40,933 nucleotides of DNA from Methanocorpusculum sp. (GTDB lineage Archaea; Halobacteriota; Methanomicrobia; Methanomicrobiales; Methanocorpusculaceae): assembly GCA_030539655.1 (NCBI GenBank), contig JAUNXT010000003.1, positions 21,183 through 62,115 of the forward strand. The letters are read 5' to 3'. Positions 4,019 through 13,435 of the stretch are shown piece by piece; position 1 is the stretch's first letter, and each line of letters begins with the position of its first letter. The notes beneath the pieces are model-generated. The model did not search any database, was not told the origin of the DNA, and saw only the letters and a list, made by a program, of their open reading frames with translations. Both the position numbers and the translations under genes were made by a program.

Positions 4019-5620
4019 ATGCAAGTATTTGACAACGCTAATTTATTTAACCCAGCAGATGGCTCATGGGAGCTCTTATCTTTTTCCGTGGAAGATGGTA
4101 AAGTAGCACTCATCGGTCCATCCGAGTCTATTCCCGGGGAAAACCGCACAGATCTCAGAGGCAAGCGGGTAGTTCCCGGATTAATTGACTGCCATGTCCA
4201 CATCGAAAGTTCACTTCTAATTCCGCGTGAATTCGGGAGTCTGATTCTCTCTCACGGTGTCACAACCGCAGTCTGTGACCCGCATGAAATCGCAAATGTG
4301 GCTGGGACTGCAGGAATTGACTTTATGCTCGAGGATGCAGATGCATCCCCTGCCGATTTATTCTTCATGATTCCATCCTGTGTGCCGGCAACACCTCTTG
4401 AAACAGGGGGGGCTGCAGTTACCGCTGAAGACATGAAAAAGTATGTCGGTCATCCCCGTGTCTTAGGCCTTGGGGAGATGATGAATGTTCCGGGTGTTCT
4501 CAATAAAGACCCGGAAGTGCTCGCCAAGCTTTCGCTTTTCAGACACATCGACGGTCATGCCCCGCAGGTTACAGGAGAGGCCCTATGCAGGTACTGTTCG
4601 TATGGAATCTCAACAGATCATGAGTGTGTTTCTGCAGATGAGGTACGGGAAAAGGTCAAACGCGGCATGCGCATTCTGCTGCGCGAAGGAGATGCTGCAA
4701 AAAATGTTGCCGCATTAACACCTGCGGTTACTGCTGAGACAGCATCAAGGTTTGCATTTGCAACCGATGACCGCCATGCCGACTCACTCTTGGAGGATGG
4801 ATCGATTGATAACTGCATCCGTCAGGCAATGAAGGCAGGAATGTCCCTTGAGACCGCACTGCGGCTTGCAACACTTTCTGCTGCAGACATTATGGGCTTA
4901 TCAGACCGCGGTCTCATCGCTCCGGGAAGAATTGCCGATTTCTGCGTGCTCGCAGACAGCGGAGAGTTTTGTGTAACCGAAGTGTACAAAAACGGCATTA
5001 AGTTTGTGAGCCGCCATACTGATGCACATTGTTCGGATATTGCGTTTCCACCGTTTATCATCCCCTCGCTTTCAAAAGAGGATCTGAAACTTCCGGACGG
5101 AAATCTAAAGACCATCGAAGTATTTCCGGGAGAGCTGATATCAGGTGCTGTTCCCAGAACAAAAGATGCGGAGGGTGTTAATAAAGTAATATGTATAGAC
5201 CGGTATCGCGGTAAAAAATTCGGGGTTGCCCAGGTTTTGGGCCTCGGTCTCCGGAAAGGGGCTGTTGCATCATCCATCGGGCATGATGCACATAACATTA
5301 TCGCAGCAGGAGCGGATGATGACGACCTGCTTTCTGCAGTCTCCGCCGTTTCCCAGGCAGAAGGCGGGATGGTGGTCTGCATAGATGGAAAGGTAACGCT
5401 TCTCCCGCTTCCGGCAGGAGGTCTGATGACTTCTGAACCGTATAGGGAGGTCTGTAAAAAACTGCGTGCACTAAACATTGAGTCGGAAAAAACAGGAGCA
5501 GTCAGCCATGTGTTTATCCAGCTGAGTTTCCTCGGACTTACGGTAATTCCTCATCTTAAGATTACGCCGCGCGGTCTTTTTGACGGAGATGCCTTTACGG
5601 ACACCGGAATTCTGTGGTGA
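4019..5620 (+). CDS. ade: Adenine deaminase
   Basis: About 533 residues from ATG 4019; a GTG at 4010 is possible, but GGTGA at 4009-4013 is well placed as a Shine-Dalgarno for ATG 4019. It belongs to the amidohydrolase superfamily: the first metal ligands are in GLIDCHVHIESS (His about 59 and 61), followed by TTAVCDPHEIANVAG, GLGEMMNVPGV, DGHAPQV, STDHECV and FATDDRH, all in the order seen in Ade proteins. The C-terminal region (about 390-533) is the extra domain of adenine deaminases. The enzyme converts adenine to hypoxanthine and ammonia in purine salvage and acts in the cytoplasm. It is slightly shorter than many bacterial homologues. It may be co-transcribed with the two small genes upstream. 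Confidence 0.93.
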   Translation: MQVFDNANLFNPADGSWELLSFSVEDGKVALIGPSESIPGENRTDLRGKRVVPGLIDCHVHIESSLLIPREFGSLILSHGVTTAVCDPHEIANVAGTAGIDFMLEDADASPADLFFMIPSCVPATPLETGGAAVTAEDMKKYVGHPRVLGLGEMMNVPGVLNKDPEVLAKLSLFRHIDGHAPQVTGEALCRYCSYGISTDHECVSADEVREKVKRGMRILLREGDAAKNVAALTPAVTAETASRFAFATDDRHADSLLEDGSIDNCIRQAMKAGMSLETALRLATLSAADIMGLSDRGLIAPGRIADFCVLADSGEFCVTEVYKNGIKFVSRHTDAHCSDIAFPPFIIPSLSKEDLKLPDGNLKTIEVFPGELISGAVPRTKDAEGVNKVICIDRYRGKKFGVAQVLGLGLRKGAVASSIGHDAHNIIAAGADDDDLLSAVSAVSQAEGGMVVCIDGKVTLLPLPAGGLMTSEPYREVCKKLRALNIESEKTGAVSHVFIQLSFLGLTVIPHLKITPRGLFDGDAFTDTGILW

Positions 5621-5622
5621 GA

Positions 5623-5631
5623 AACTATATC
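5623..5631 (+). promoter_or_regulatory. TATA box upstream of the secreted protein and carrier-protein cluster
   Basis: AACTATATC lies 26-34 nt before ATG 5657. It is the only good TATA candidate before the run of five genes ending at 9265 and may drive all of them. Confidence 0.5.
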
Positions 5632-5656
5632 TAATTCAAAAACAAACAATTATAAA

Positions 5657-6220
5657 ATGAAAGGCAAAGTGATTATCTGCATTCTGCTTGTGCTGGTACT
5701 CTTTAGCATCCCTGTGGCAGCAGATGCGGAATCTTCACTCTCATTTCCGGAAGAGAGTTCTGCAGTTGACGGAGAGGGTTCGGAGATTCCGCTTATTGAA
5801 AGCCCTGTGATGCTGAACGGAGAAAACAATTACGGGTATCTGCATGTTAATTCCGTTCAGATTAATCTGAAAAATACTGATGCAGATATCATTGTATCCT
5901 ATGATATTGATCCGTTTATGTCTTTTCTGGTCTCAATATTCGGGACAGAGGATTTGAAAAAGCGTGTTCTTGGTGTTCTTCAGTATCCGGATGTAGGATA
6001 TACCAATCAGGTGATTACTTTCCAGTATCTCGATGTAAAACGTGCAGTTCTTCACATCACAAATGCGGCTCTTGACAATCAGGATAACTCGTACTGGTAT
6101 CGGGCACACACCTTTGGCTGTACTATTCCGAATCTCTACTTCCTTATCTCTGATTCGGATGTCAGAAGTTTCACCAATGTGAAGGAAATGAGCAGAGGAA
6201 TAGGATACTTCAAATCCTGA
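5657..6220 (+). CDS. Secreted protein of unknown function
   Basis: This 187-residue protein begins with a clear Sec signal peptide (MKGKVIICILLVLVLFSIPV, with AADA following as a likely cleavage site near residue 24). The mature part starts with an acidic, low-complexity stretch and then about 120 residues of predicted beta structure (GYLHVNSVQINLKNTDADII), followed by the segment FGTEDLKKRVLGVLQYPD. I do not recognise the family. The stop is 23 nt before the phosphopantetheinyl transferase start, so it may share a transcript with the carrier-protein cluster. A functional connection is inference only. Confidence 0.75.
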   Translation: MKGKVIICILLVLVLFSIPVAADAESSLSFPEESSAVDGEGSEIPLIESPVMLNGENNYGYLHVNSVQINLKNTDADIIVSYDIDPFMSFLVSIFGTEDLKKRVLGVLQYPDVGYTNQVITFQYLDVKRAVLHITNAALDNQDNSYWYRAHTFGCTIPNLYFLISDSDVRSFTNVKEMSRGIGYFKS

Positions 6221-6243
6221 TTTTTTAAGAGAGGTGTCTGTTT

Positions 6244-6627
6244 ATGAGAATATTTACCGGTTGCGATATTGTGCGTACCGGAAGATTCACGTCGCACCTT
6301 GATGATAAACGGTTTCTTGACCGCTGTTTTACTGAAGCAGAACAGGCGTACTGTTTCGAAAAGGCAAGTCCGGAAGAACATTTTGTAGCACGGTTCGCCG
6401 GAAAGGAAACAGTACTGAAAGCATTTTCAGGGAGTGGCATCCGGTACCCGATAGGGTCTGTTGAGATTTTGAATAAACCGTCCGGAAGACCAATTGTGCG
6501 GATTTCAAACGATGAAGCAGTTCCAGACGGTTTTTGTATTGAAGTGAGCCTCAGCCATGAGGATGAGTATGCCGCAGCATCTTCTGTGGTCTGTTTTTCA
6601 GACGATAAATCATCCCGTAACATATGA
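6244..6627 (+). CDS. AcpS-type 4'-phosphopantetheinyl transferase
   Basis: 127 residues, the usual AcpS length. The family motifs are present: GCDIV (6-10, with metal-binding Asp8), FTEAE (29-33), HFVARFAGKETVLKAF (46-61, with the catalytic RFAGKE) and a late SLSHEDEYA. AcpS moves the phosphopantetheine arm of coenzyme A onto a serine of a carrier protein. Its substrate is most likely the ACP encoded at 9029-9265. A GAGGTG Shine-Dalgarno lies at 6231-6236. The stop overlaps the next ATG by 4 nt (ATGA). Most archaea lack fatty-acid ACPs, so a dedicated AcpS beside a carrier protein suggests a bacterial-type acquired module. Confidence 0.9.
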   Translation: MRIFTGCDIVRTGRFTSHLDDKRFLDRCFTEAEQAYCFEKASPEEHFVARFAGKETVLKAFSGSGIRYPIGSVEILNKPSGRPIVRISNDEAVPDGFCIEVSLSHEDEYAAASSVVCFSDDKSSRNI

Positions 6628-8132
6628 CGAAAAATATTACCGAATGGCTTGACAAAACGGCGGCGCGTTTTCCGGAGGGACTTGCACTCCATGATGAACA
6701 GGAAGAACTGACGTACCAGGAGTACCGGATAAAAGCATTAGGAATTGCCCGTTCCATAATTGAAAAAAATATCCGGCACGAACCGGTAATTGTTTATCTG
6801 GAAAAAGGAGTGAATATCCCCGTTTCCTTTTTTGGTATCGCATACAGTGGAAACTTTTATTCACCAGTAGATACTGCGCTTCCAAAGGCGAGAGTTTCCG
6901 TGATGCTTTCTGTTCTGCAGCCGAAACTTGCGATAACCCGCCGCAGTTTATCCTGGGTGCTTGATGATGCAGGATATAGAGGAGAGCGACTTTTCATCGA
7001 GGATATCTGTCCGGCTGAAGATGATGAGGCAGTAGTGGCTTCCGTTCTCTCAGGGGCCGGCGGTGAGGACCTGCTCTACGTTTTGTTCACCTCCGGGTCA
7101 ACCGGTATCCCGAAGGGGGTGTCTATTACGCACCGTTCGGTTATCAACTATATTGAGTGGGCAGACAGTGTTTTTTCCTTCACCGAACGTGATTCATTCG
7201 GAAATCAGGCGCCGTTTTATTTCGATAATTCGATTCTTGATATCTACTGTGCGGCAAAATCAGGTGCAACTCTCTATATCATCCCGAAACATCTCTTTGC
7301 CCAGCCGGTGCCTCTCCTTTCGTATCTGAAGGAACACAGGATTACAACGATTTTCTGGGTGCCCTCAGCTCTGATTGTCCCTGCAAAACTGCATGCTTTC
7401 CGGAATGTTGACCTGACATCGTGCCTGAAGCGCGTTCTTTTCTGCGGGGAGGTGATGCCTGCGCGGCAGCTGTCTCTCTGGAGGGCCTACCTCCCCGATG
7501 TCTGCTATGCAAATCTATACGGTCCCACAGAGATTACCGATGCATGTGCGTATTATATCATTGACCGCGAGTTTGCTGATTATGAGCCGGTTCCGATTGG
7601 AAAACCAATCCGGGGGGTTGAGATGTATCTTATCACTGAAGAAGATGGTAAAATCCGCCGTGTATCCAAAGGAGCGTCTGGGGAAATCTGTGTTGCAGGT
7701 GTCTGTCTTTCTCCTGGGTATTATCAGAACCCGGAGAAAACACGCGAGGTCTTTGTTCCAAATCCCTTCGGCTCCGGACTTATGTATAAAACAGGGGATA
7801 TCGGAAGGTACAATGCACGCGGAGAACTTGAGTATCTTTCCCGGAAGGACTTCCAGATAAAGCATCTGGGACACCGGATTGAACTTGGAGAAATAGAAAC
7901 TGCTGCAGATTCAGTCGCGGGAGTCAGCCGCTCGTGCGCGCTCTATGATGCGGTGCGGCATAAGATCGTACTTTTTGCGGAAACCGGTATTAGTTCGTCA
8001 TTCATCGAAGAATCTCTCGCACATCTGCTCCCGGCTTACATGATGCCAAGCAAAATCATTATCATGGATGAGATACCTATTAACTGTAACGGAAAGATTG
8101 ACCGCACTCTGCTTCAGGAGTATATCACATGA
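6624..8132 (+). CDS. Stand-alone amino-acid adenylation enzyme (DltA-like, NRPS A-domain)
   Basis: 502 residues, a complete A domain without attached partners. Core motifs are intact: FTSGSTGIPKG (155-165), FYFDNSILDIY (198-208), NLYGPTE (297-303), YKTGDIGR (388-395), the A8 hinge LGHRIELGEIE (415-425) and the catalytic lysine K491 in NCNGKID. Asp201 is the residue that normally binds the substrate alpha-amino group, so the substrate is likely an amino acid. By manual alignment the pocket reads D201, N202, L205, W245, L272, C274, L298, D306, A307, K491. C274 in LFCGEV matches the cysteine of DltA linked to D-alanine selectivity. It should activate an amino acid with ATP and load it on the ACP three genes on. 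It overlaps both neighbours by 4 nt (ATGA). DltB and DltD partners are absent. Confidence 0.9.
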   Translation: MTKNITEWLDKTAARFPEGLALHDEQEELTYQEYRIKALGIARSIIEKNIRHEPVIVYLEKGVNIPVSFFGIAYSGNFYSPVDTALPKARVSVMLSVLQPKLAITRRSLSWVLDDAGYRGERLFIEDICPAEDDEAVVASVLSGAGGEDLLYVLFTSGSTGIPKGVSITHRSVINYIEWADSVFSFTERDSFGNQAPFYFDNSILDIYCAAKSGATLYIIPKHLFAQPVPLLSYLKEHRITTIFWVPSALIVPAKLHAFRNVDLTSCLKRVLFCGEVMPARQLSLWRAYLPDVCYANLYGPTEITDACAYYIIDREFADYEPVPIGKPIRGVEMYLITEEDGKIRRVSKGASGEICVAGVCLSPGYYQNPEKTREVFVPNPFGSGLMYKTGDIGRYNARGELEYLSRKDFQIKHLGHRIELGEIETAADSVAGVSRSCALYDAVRHKIVLFAETGISSSFIEESLAHLLPAYMMPSKIIIMDEIPINCNGKIDRTLLQEYIT

Positions 8133-8983
8133 AAGGAATATTTGAACACATTGTTGTAATCGGCTACGGTAAGATTACAGGAGAGGTCCTCTCCTTTGTT
8201 AACGCACAGAAAGAAAAGTACGGCTATCAGATGGAGTTCATCGAGTATGAGATTCATCCGGTAAGCATCACCCATAAAATCTGCACTGATGAGGGAATAC
8301 CCTACGCGCAGATTCCGGAGAAGGCAAAGGTTACCGAAAAACTGCTTTCAATCCCAGAAAAGACGCTTATTATCAGTGCAAGCAACAACTATCTGTTCCC
8401 TGCAGAGGTTGTAAATAAGGATAATATTACCGTTATCAACTTCCACAACGCACTTCTCCCGAAGTTTCCGGGACGCAATGCACCGTCATGGGCGATGTTT
8501 GAAGGGGAGACCGAGGCTGGTATCACTTGGCACTATGTAACGCCCGGTGTTGACGACGGAGCAATTATTGTTCAGAAACGGACGCAGATAACACCCGATA
8601 TGAAAGCATACGAGCTTGCGGGTATTCTGATGAATATCGCGTTTGAAGGATTCTGCGAGAGCTTTGATGGTGTTGTTACCGGAACCGCTCCGGTTGTTCA
8701 TCAGGTGTTTCCGCCGAACCGGAAGATTTATCTTTCAAAGATGGTCCCGAATGACGGGGTTTTCAGCCTTGACGACAGCCCGGAGGACATCTACCGGCTT
8801 CTGCGTTCAACTGATTACGGGCTGAATGCTATCTTCCCGCACATGAAGACAAATTACCAGGGAAAGGATATTGAAATCACCCGCTATCGGAAAATATCCG
8901 CAGATAAGAAGGAAGATGACGGCTCATTGTATCTTCCGCTTAAAGACGGGTCTTTCCTTAAGTTAAAATACAAGGAATTATAA
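8129..8983 (+). CDS. Formyltransferase of the Fmt/ArnA/sugar N-formyltransferase family
   Basis: 284 residues. The catalytic formyltransferase core is clear: VINFHNALLPKFPGRNAP (102-119), with Asn104 and His106 equal to the catalytic N and H of Fmt, and GITWHYVTPGVDDGAII (131-147), with Asp142 equal to the catalytic Asp. A C-terminal region (about 205-284, containing DGVFSLDDSPEDIYRLLRST) resembles the Fmt_C/ArnA C-terminal part. The family moves a formyl group from 10-formyl-tetrahydrofolate (or a pterin analogue) to an amine. Archaea do not formylate initiator tRNA, so a role as true Fmt is unlikely. Linked between an adenylation enzyme and an ACP, it may formylate a carrier-bound amino acid, as the F domain of LgrA does. 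An amino-sugar substrate is the alternative. Confidence 0.88.
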   Translation: MKGIFEHIVVIGYGKITGEVLSFVNAQKEKYGYQMEFIEYEIHPVSITHKICTDEGIPYAQIPEKAKVTEKLLSIPEKTLIISASNNYLFPAEVVNKDNITVINFHNALLPKFPGRNAPSWAMFEGETEAGITWHYVTPGVDDGAIIVQKRTQITPDMKAYELAGILMNIAFEGFCESFDGVVTGTAPVVHQVFPPNRKIYLSKMVPNDGVFSLDDSPEDIYRLLRSTDYGLNAIFPHMKTNYQGKDIEITRYRKISADKKEDDGSLYLPLKDGSFLKLKYKEL

Positions 8984-9028
8984 AGAGATAAGCAGTATCA
9001 CCCGAATCATCGGATACAGGGGTTGTTT

Positions 9029-9265
9029 ATGAGTACTGAAGAGAGAATCCTTAAGGTCCTCGAAGGAATTAATGAGAAGATTCTCACCTACAGCGGTGAG
9101 AATATGATGGAAGATGGAACGCTCGACTCCTTTGAGCTGATTGAGATTGTAAGCCAGCTTGAAGAGGAGTTTGATATTGAAATCGATGCGGAGTATGCGG
9201 TTATCGAAAACTTCGCAAATAAGGAGACTATCATTTCCCTGATGAAAAAACTCCTGAAAGAATAA
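9029..9265 (+). CDS. Acyl/peptidyl carrier protein
   Basis: 78 acidic residues of the ACP/PCP fold. The attachment serine is S34 in EDGTLDSFELIEIV, followed by SQLEEEFDIEID and a C-terminal helix (ETIISLMKKL). This start was chosen because ATG 9029 follows GGGGTTG and gives a family-length protein. The gap after the formyltransferase gene is 45 nt. It should be modified by the AcpS at 6244-6627 and charged by the adenylation enzyme at 6624-8132. Its LDSFELIEI context resembles DltC and stand-alone PCPs more than fatty-acid ACPs (usually DSL), which agrees with the genomic context. Confidence 0.9.
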   Translation: MSTEERILKVLEGINEKILTYSGENMMEDGTLDSFELIEIVSQLEEEFDIEIDAEYAVIENFANKETIISLMKKLLKE

Positions 9266-9266
9266 T

Positions 9267-9278
9267 TTCTTTTTTTTG
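9267..9278 (+). terminator. T-rich terminator after the ACP gene
   Basis: A run TTTCTTTTTTTG starts right after the ACP stop codon. Archaeal terminators are oligo-T tracts without a required hairpin. This one separates the carrier-protein cluster from glyS. Confidence 0.5.
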
Positions 9279-11128: not shown

Positions 11129-13435
11129 ATGCCGTACATAAGCCGCAGTCACATCCCGGAAAACACCATCGAAGAGCGTGCATATCAGGCAGCAATCGCA
11201 GAACATGCTGAATCCGGAAATACCCTCGCTGTGCTTCCGACCGGAATGGGAAAGACTGCGGTCGCTCTCCTGCTCGCCGCAAAACGTCTTGACAGCGGAA
11301 AAATCCTGATGCTTGCCCCGACAAAACCGCTTGTAGAGCAGCATCACAGATATTTTTCACAAAATCTCCTTTTAGATGAAGGAGATGTGGTCATGATAAC
11401 CGGGGAAACAAAGCCGGAAAAACGTGTCCAGCTTTTTACCTCCTCTAGGTTCTGTGTGGCAACACCTGAGGCTGTCAAAAACGACCTCATCGCCGAACGG
11501 TACAATCTAAACGACGTCTCTCTTTTAATCGTGGACGAATGCCATCATGCATCCGGGAACTATGCCTATGTTTTCATAGCAAAACGCTACAATGAAACGG
11601 CAGAAAATCCGCTTCTTCTCGGCATGACTGCATCTCCCGGGTCAGACAGTGAACATGTCGCGGAGATTTGCAGCAACCTGTCGATTCAGATTGTGGAAAG
11701 CAGAACCGAAGACGATCCAGATGTACGGCCGTACGTCCATGAACGTGAGCTGACCTATGTAACCCTTGAGCTTCCCGAAGAGCTCTGGCTTGCGGTTTCT
11801 GTTTTAAACAGCATGATTGAGGACCGCATCAGTCAGCTCCGGGCGCTGAATTATCGTGTGCCGCAGCGGACGGCTCTTTCCATGAAAGCATTAAACGGCG
11901 TGCTTGCGCAGATTCAGATGCGAATGCAGCAGAGGGACAGCACTGCCTATACGGCAGTATCTGTGCATGCGGAGCTGATGAAGCTCAGACACGGAGTAAC
12001 CGTTGCCGAATCCCAGGGCTCGACCGCACTTAAAACATACCTGCTGCGGCTGCAAAATGAAGCCGCAGGCGGCGGGAGTAAAGCCTCAAAACGCATTGTT
12101 TCTGATTCACGATTCCTGAGGATTCTGGCGATGACTGAAGAGTGGACCACAGAGATTCACCCTAAGGCCGCAGCGGTTGTCCGTGCTGTCCGGGAACAGC
12201 TGCTTGAGTCGCCCGATGCAAAAATCATTGTGTTTGTCTCCTTCCGTGACAGCGTACAGATGATTACAGACTACCTGAATGCTGCAGGAATCGCTGCACA
12301 GCGGTTTGTCGGGCAGGCATCCCGCGATTCGGAAAAGGGTTTGTCGCAGAAACAGCAGATTGAAACAATCCGGAAGTTCCGCGAAGGTGAGTACCCTGTC
12401 CTTGTGGCAACATCAGTAGGTGAAGAAGGGCTGGATATTCCGGCCACTGACCTTGTGATATTCTACGAGGCAGTCCCATCAGAGGTCCGGAGTATCCAAC
12501 GAAAGGGAAGAACCGGCAGGAACTCTTCAGGTAAGATTCTTGTATTCATCACCAAAGGCACTGCTGATGAAACATATCGCTGGGTAAGCGATGCAAGGGA
12601 GAAAAAGATGCTTAAAGGTGTTTCCGTGATGAAGTCCGGTGTTGTCCCGACAGCTGCTCAGGCACCGCAGATTCTATCGGAAATTCCTGCAGCAGGAAGC
12701 GCATCCTATGGTCTTCCTGAAAAAAGCGGGCAGATGACCCTGGCAGACGCGGTAATTGAAGCTGCCCGTGAAGAAGAAGAGGCGCGGCCTCATGTTGTTA
12801 TTGATAACCGTGAGATGTCATCCAAGGTAGCCGAGGTGTTAAGCAGTCTCGGGGCGCGCATCACCCTGATGCATATGGATGCCGGCGACTATGCTGCAGG
12901 AAGCAGAATTGTCATTGAACGAAAGACGGTACAGGATTTTGCCGATACTCTGGTTGACCGTGATCTCTTCGGTCAGATGAAAAAACTCGCAGATTCCGCA
13001 CTGCGTCCGGTTCTGATAATCGAAGGCGGCGGGATATCAGACCTTTACGGCGCCAGAAATATCCATCCGAATGCCGTCAGAAATACGCTTGCCTCCATCG
13101 CGGCTGACTATGATATATCCATTTTATTCACCAAAGATGCAGAAGAGACCGCGCAGATGATTTATGCATTTGCACGGCGTGAGACGGGTGAGCCGCATCC
13201 GGAGCGTTCAAAGCATAAAGCAAAGAATGCCCGCTCGGAAAATGATGCAGTGCTTTATATTCTGACCTCGTTCCCGGATGTGGGGCCAAAAGCGGCACGT
13301 CTTCTTTTGGGGAGGTTCGGTTCACTCAAAGGGATAATGTCTGCGACAAAGGAAGAACTGATGTCGGTAAAAGGTGTCGGAGAAAAAACTGCATCCTCGA
13401 TTTGTGCCGCATTTGAACACACCTGGCATGAGTGA
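11129..13435 (+). CDS. hef: Hef-type helicase/XPF-family nuclease
   Basis: 768 residues, full length for euryarchaeal Hef. The N-terminal superfamily 2 helicase has Walker A LPTGMGKT (36-43), the DECHH box at 136-140, GMTASPGS (motif III), and motif VI in QRKGRTGRNSSG. The C-terminal half is an ERCC4/XPF nuclease with the catalytic ERKTVQDFADTL (E597-R598-K599), followed by tandem helix-hairpin-helix motifs (SFPDVGPKAARLLLGRFGSL and VKGVGEKTAS). Hef unwinds and cleaves stalled replication forks and is related to FANCM and XPF. All catalytic residues appear intact. The end converges on the RNase P RNA gene. Confidence 0.96.
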   Translation: MPYISRSHIPENTIEERAYQAAIAEHAESGNTLAVLPTGMGKTAVALLLAAKRLDSGKILMLAPTKPLVEQHHRYFSQNLLLDEGDVVMITGETKPEKRVQLFTSSRFCVATPEAVKNDLIAERYNLNDVSLLIVDECHHASGNYAYVFIAKRYNETAENPLLLGMTASPGSDSEHVAEICSNLSIQIVESRTEDDPDVRPYVHERELTYVTLELPEELWLAVSVLNSMIEDRISQLRALNYRVPQRTALSMKALNGVLAQIQMRMQQRDSTAYTAVSVHAELMKLRHGVTVAESQGSTALKTYLLRLQNEAAGGGSKASKRIVSDSRFLRILAMTEEWTTEIHPKAAAVVRAVREQLLESPDAKIIVFVSFRDSVQMITDYLNAAGIAAQRFVGQASRDSEKGLSQKQQIETIRKFREGEYPVLVATSVGEEGLDIPATDLVIFYEAVPSEVRSIQRKGRTGRNSSGKILVFITKGTADETYRWVSDAREKKMLKGVSVMKSGVVPTAAQAPQILSEIPAAGSASYGLPEKSGQMTLADAVIEAAREEEEARPHVVIDNREMSSKVAEVLSSLGARITLMHMDAGDYAAGSRIVIERKTVQDFADTLVDRDLFGQMKKLADSALRPVLIIEGGGISDLYGARNIHPNAVRNTLASIAADYDISILFTKDAEETAQMIYAFARRETGEPHPERSKHKAKNARSENDAVLYILTSFPDVGPKAARLLLGRFGSLKGIMSATKEELMSVKGVGEKTASSICAAFEHTWHE

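Follow-up and report, generated by a model that had tools for sequence, protein, structure and literature searches.

A putative stand-alone formylation-adenylation-thiolation gene set in a gut relative of Methanocorpusculum

Gene content, distribution and selection

The window analyzed here, a stretch of 40,933 nucleotides, comes from a gut relative of Methanocorpusculum whose genome of 1.20 Mb is 77% complete. An ORF check of the window places four genes on its forward strand, encoding an AcpS-type phosphopantetheinyl transferase, an adenylation protein (A), a formyltransferase (FT) and a carrier protein (ACP) (Table 1). Their families, as originally predicted, are confirmed by Pfam and NCBIfam models, and the proposed 4-nt overlaps among the first three genes are present as ATGA at positions 6624-6627 (AcpS/A) and 8129-8132 (A/FT). 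A gap of ~45 nt separates FT from ACP, for which ATG 9029 is the best reading of the start, with TTG 9023 as the alternative. The ORF at 5657-6220 was considered as a further member and dropped: it is carried by 24 of 25 genomes of the genus and adjoins ade across Methanocorpusculum, and both are ancestral genus genes outside the set.

Table 1. Genes and flanking signals of the four-gene set (window positions)
Feature	Position	Strand	Basis
Ribosome-binding-like sequence AGAGGTG before acpS	6230..6236	+	Read from sequence
AcpS-type phosphopantetheinyl transferase, 127 aa	6244..6627	+	Motifs GCDIVRTGRF, ARFAGKE; matches above cut-off to PF01648 and TIGR00556
Free-standing amino-acid adenylation protein A, 502 aa	6624..8132	+	TIGR01733 over cut-off; DltA model not
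Formyltransferase FT, 284 aa	8129..8983	+	PF00551; triad N104-H106-D142; tree; alignment
Carrier protein ACP, 78 aa from ATG 9029	9029..9265	+	PF00550; attachment Ser in GTLDSFELIEIV
T-run right after ACP stop, likely archaeal terminator	9270..9277	+	Read from sequence

Three of the 25 genus genomes carry the FT gene, and the same three carry the A gene (the host, G000, and two relatives, G010 and G026); the other 22 lack the set. G010 holds the whole set on one contig, in the same order and context as the window. In G026 the set is split over two contigs, one of which has ade, the upstream ORF and acpS at its end, while the other starts inside A, continues through FT and ACP, and has a right flank that differs from the window; across this break, the gene order probably matches. 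Between G000 and G010, dN/dS is 0.095 for A, 0.020 for FT, 0.045 for ACP and 0.34 for AcpS. Purifying selection is clear for A, FT and ACP and weaker for AcpS. Because the order recurs in two other genomes of the genus and dN/dS is low, the set is more than a chance assemblage. GC content and tetranucleotide use do not distinguish it from the rest of the window, and composition gives no foreign mark.

Beyond the genus, a search with FT at E<=1e-20 found the host genome as the sole match in a sample of 394 genomes of the phylum. An FT profile scan of genome contigs, built on a three-sequence alignment with narrow patterns, returned only the two genus relatives and one PurN, and a scan of viral contigs gave no match. 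Literature searches turned up no paper that describes this cluster, and none on NRPS genes in Methanocorpusculum.

Carrier protein, its transferase and the adenylation protein

AcpS matches PF01648 (E 1.3e-14) and scores 59.7 bits on TIGR00556, over the cut-off of 45.35. ACP passes PF00550 barely, at 20.9 bits against a cut-off of 20.8, and its LDSF motif agrees with the predicted carrier with an attachment serine. Each is the sole such sequence found by tblastn in the host genome (1.20 Mb, nearly all of the assembly).

A scores 217 bits on PF00501 and 328.6 bits on the amino-acid adenylation model TIGR01733 (cut-off 317.4), and it reaches 287 bits on the DltA equivalog TIGR01734, whose cut-off is 559.85. 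By these models A is an amino-acid adenylation protein and not DltA. The core motifs are intact (TSGSTGIPKG, NLYGPTE, YKTGD and NGKIDR), and the pocket code keeps Asp235, as in amino-acid-activating domains. The code itself, D-N-L-F-L-C-L-D-A-K (DNLFLCLDAK), is identical in G010, agrees with G026 at the three positions covered, and fits no standard specificity known to us. Its extraction was checked by recovery of DVWHLSLIDK and DILQLGLIWK in NRPS rows, which we take to be the codes for Ser and Gly, respectively.

The best relatives of A are free-standing proteins from Bacteroidota (42% identity, 409 bits) and Paenibacillus (35.5%), with which it forms a clade (SH-aLRT 99). A conserved cassette of SDR, A, GNAT, ACP, KASIII and MBL (metallo-beta-lactamase-fold) genes is present in both lineages, on a Paenibacillus cellulosilyticus plasmid and in the Bacteroidota genome G716 (L114:6301-12307 and L126:5026-11184), and each of the six proteins is homologous to its counterpart in the other copy. 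The GNAT gene of each copy is flanked by A and ACP, the slot taken by FT in the archaeal set, and the ACP of the Paenibacillus cassette is 37% identical to the archaeal one. The Bacteroidota copy sits among genes that we named by eye, unscored, as sugar aminotransferase, sugar acetyltransferase, initiating sugar-phosphate transferase and glycosyltransferase. None of the cassette proteins GNAT, KASIII, SDR and MBL has a tblastn match (E<=1e-4) in the 77% complete host genome. The A-ACP pair looks bacterial and related to the A-GNAT-ACP cassette, FT having taken the place of GNAT, and the four-gene set is apparently of bacterial origin. The original prediction had named a lack of clustering beyond this genome as grounds for its rejection; clustering does extend to other genomes of the genus and, with rearrangement, to bacteria.

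Phylogenetic placement of the formyltransferase

FT scores 70.6 bits on PF00551 (cut-off 26.1). The catalytic triad that the first reading of the sequence described as intact is invariant in alignment even with distant relatives, and FT has the SWA and TWH motifs common to NRPS F-type proteins. It falls far under the PurN and ArnA equivalogs (57.9 against 777 on the ArnA model) and scores 29 against 238 on the dTDP-4-amino-4,6-dideoxyglucose formyltransferase model, a result that leaves sugar subtypes without a model as possible matches.

Among plasmid records, a search with FT at E<=1e-14 gave 30 matches, nearly all in or beside NRPS or adenylation genes, as judged from annotation or from tblastn of fetched loci. 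They include F-A starters of Bradyrhizobium, Rhizobium, Mesorhizobium and Paraburkholderia, NRPS proteins of the MupA/Atu3671 type, a Mycobacterium formyltransferase upstream of an NRPS gene, and, in Agrobacterium, a formyltransferase whose gene immediately follows AMP-binding and ACP genes of its own. The latter belongs to a cluster on Agrobacterium salinitolerans pAtCFBP5507a (L113:15754-25945) that also encodes a condensation protein, MaoC, a glycosyltransferase, a MATE transporter and an acyl-CoA dehydrogenase, and that likely makes a formylated natural product. In 396 Bacteroidota genomes (E<=1e-13), the 22 matches are mostly Fmt, with one NRPS F domain, and none lies beside an A or ACP gene of this kind.

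A 42-row tree places FT in one group with NRPS F domains and the Agrobacterium formyltransferase (support 93/85), and the same grouping, with rhizobial and Bacteroidota F domains, appears at 97/96 once ArnA is added and long odd branches are dropped. Topology tests reject a placement of FT with Fmt (p-AU 0.0038) and do not reject one with PurN (p-AU 0.18) or on the sugar/ArnA/Fmt side (p-AU 0.22). Most of the reference set was chosen among the top matches of FT itself, and so the trees lend moderate support to FT belonging with NRPS F domains. FT is not specially close to LgrA, with which the original prediction compared the set: in a pairwise PDB search ArnA scores higher (46 against 33.5 bits), and the rhizobial F type has no close representative among solved structures. 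An AlphaFold model of FT from a three-row alignment (pLDDT 46) was too poor for use.

Proposed function and comparison with known systems

With moderate confidence, we read the set as a stand-alone formylation-adenylation-thiolation (F-A-T) module that would yield an N-formyl-aminoacyl-S-ACP for transfer to an acceptor. AcpS would place phosphopantetheine on the ACP serine, and A would adenylate an alpha-amino acid and load holo-ACP, two steps that follow from family membership. FT would then formylate the amine of the amino acid on the carrier, with 10-formyl-tetrahydrofolate as donor and N-formyl-aminoacyl-S-ACP as product; this step follows from the kinship of FT and from gene order. A further enzyme might pass the N-formyl-aminoacyl group to an acceptor, for example an amino sugar or amine. 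What we say of the amino acid, of its carrier-bound form as the FT substrate and of the transfer step is inference.

Three features support the reading as a split F-A-T module: FT is related to NRPS F domains, which act on the loaded amino acid (reviewed in PMC8949500); on the Agrobacterium plasmid, A, ACP and FT are encoded by separate, adjoining genes; and the homologous bacterial A-GNAT-ACP cassette has an acyltransferase in the FT slot. The formyl donor should be made, since formate-tetrahydrofolate ligase and PurH are present in the host genome by tblastn. These methanogens carry the genes for both enzymes (L035:2836-4503 and 4601-6094, also L225 and L235), and in G026 they adjoin the FT set. 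Against the reading stand the non-standard pocket code, the higher score of ArnA than LgrA, the p-AU of 0.22 for placement on the sugar side, and the failure to find partner enzymes in a genome that is 77% complete. Two points, a special closeness of FT to LgrA and a premise of the original prediction about archaeal tRNA discussed below, do not stand.

No acceptor, releasing or condensing enzyme adjoins the set, and DltB/DltD-type partners are absent among its neighbors in the window, as first described. Genome-wide, a Pfam search gave no condensation-domain match and tblastn gave no homologue of the Agrobacterium condensation protein (genome 77% complete). The relative G010, Candidatus Methanocorpusculum equi, has an NRPS fragment with the domain order C-A-T-C on a short contig (L046; G010:C47, 3949 bases). 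The tetranucleotide composition of this contig is slightly outside the range of window chunks, and the fragment may belong with the set as a partner or may result from misbinning.

As to the acceptor, a glycan is plausible by analogy. The idea of a surface sugar gains indirect support because the closest homologue of A lies in a Bacteroidota glycan locus and because an N-formyl-L-alanyl group has been reported on the O2 polysaccharide of Vibrio anguillarum (PMC10059132). That same glycan locus also suits an unlikely alternative, in which the set serves two neighboring decorations: A and ACP would give a plain aminoacyl group, and FT would formylate an amino sugar or small amine, like ArnA and the sugar N-formyltransferases. 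The best PDB matches of FT, ArnA and a GDP-perosamine-type formyltransferase, fit this alternative, as does its unrejected placement with sugar enzymes, but FT groups with NRPS F domains and has their TWH and SWA motifs, its gene shares 4 nt with that of A, and none of the adjacent genes is a sugar gene.

It is more doubtful that FT acts like the hydroxyornithine formyltransferases, with a free amino acid or a side-chain amine as its substrate and with loading by A either preceding or following formylation. Free-standing enzymes of that type are reported near NRPS genes (PMC8949500), and the Asp at pocket position 330 of A could face a basic side chain; however, hydroxylase and siderophore genes are absent near the set, and the nearest kin of FT are the N-terminal F domains of F-A NRPSs. 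Quite improbable is a remnant of a larger pathway, with no present product and with its other genes lost or in the missing quarter of the genome. The lack of partner genes in the incomplete host genome, together with the separate 3.9-kb NRPS contig of G010, would agree with such decay, but low dN/dS and an order conserved in three genomes speak against it.

The last alternative touches on translation, for which the original prediction excluded FT on the premise that archaea do not formylate initiator tRNA. Initiator formylation is described as absent from Archaea, whose recognition elements, including the 1-72 mismatch, are missing (reviewed in PMC9976931). The premise is unsafe here: the genus has a bacterial-type fmt and two def genes. 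In the host, a bacterial-type def-fmt pair with a 4-nt overlap lies between archaeal genes (G000:C63; L048:10755-11276 for def and 11273-12202 for fmt), scoring 142 against 104 on TIGR00079 and 289 against 201.5 on TIGR00460, and a second def gene is on the reverse strand at L208:9015-9500. The pair recurs in nearly all Methanocorpusculum genomes that we looked at. Among 286 genomes of the phylum, all six of the genus have two deformylases, and one deformylase is found in 3 of the 280 others. The host initiator tRNA has A1-U72 and keeps A73, G2-C71, C3-G70 and G4-C69, and initiator tRNA formylation possibly occurs in this archaeal genus; we found no paper on its fmt or deformylases. The conclusion that FT is not for translation holds nonetheless, because FT fails the Fmt model (62.8 bits against 201.5) and a separate Fmt is present. 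That FT is a second methionyl-tRNA formyltransferase with coincidental neighbors, as the fmt-def pair of the genus might suggest, is rejected on this score, on the separate Fmt and on the tree test (p 0.0038), and we consider it highly improbable. The presence of fmt and def leaves the reading of FT unchanged.

To our knowledge, formylation of a carrier-bound amino acid has been described solely for NRPS initiation modules. We suggest, tentatively, that discrete archaeal enzymes make an N-formyl-aminoacyl thioester for a surface glycan or small signal, with an NRPS-lineage FT in the slot of the A-GNAT-ACP cassette, as a discrete counterpart of fused F-A-T modules. If so, such a pared-down set of separate proteins, found in an archaeon with AcpS alongside, would offer a tractable test of how a formyltransferase recognizes the aminoacyl-carrier and would bear on the origin of fused F-A-T modules. 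It would also suggest that a gut methanogen makes a formylated compound or surface decoration that has yet to be described.

Several known systems share parts of this arrangement. The bacterial cassette resembles it in A (35-41% identical), in ACP (28-37%) and in having an acyltransferase gene between the two, but contains a GNAT rather than a formyltransferase, and the archaeal set lacks KASIII, SDR and MBL. DltA-DltC, the D-alanine ligase and its carrier, also pairs a free-standing A with a discrete ACP, whereas the archaeal A misses the DltA model by far and the set includes FT and has no DltB/DltD neighbor. The F-A NRPS starters of Bradyrhizobium, Rhizobium, Mesorhizobium and one Bacteroidota NRPS are the nearest kin of FT by search and tree and share TWH/SWA; unlike FT, to which they are ~30% identical, they are fused to A with NRPS modules behind. 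The Agrobacterium salinitolerans trio likewise consists of free-standing AMP-binding protein, ACP and formyltransferase genes side by side, but its A is of another subfamily (28.7%), its order is A-ACP-FT, and a condensation protein, acyl-CoA dehydrogenase and transporter are nearby. Finally, the initiation module of the linear gramicidin synthetase LgrA combines the same three activities, with the same formyl donor and carrier-bound substrate expected. A canonical F-A-T module holds them in one chain that feeds a condensation domain, whereas the archaeal set comprises three separate proteins from separate ORFs, accompanied by an adjacent AcpS and by no condensation domain that we could find.
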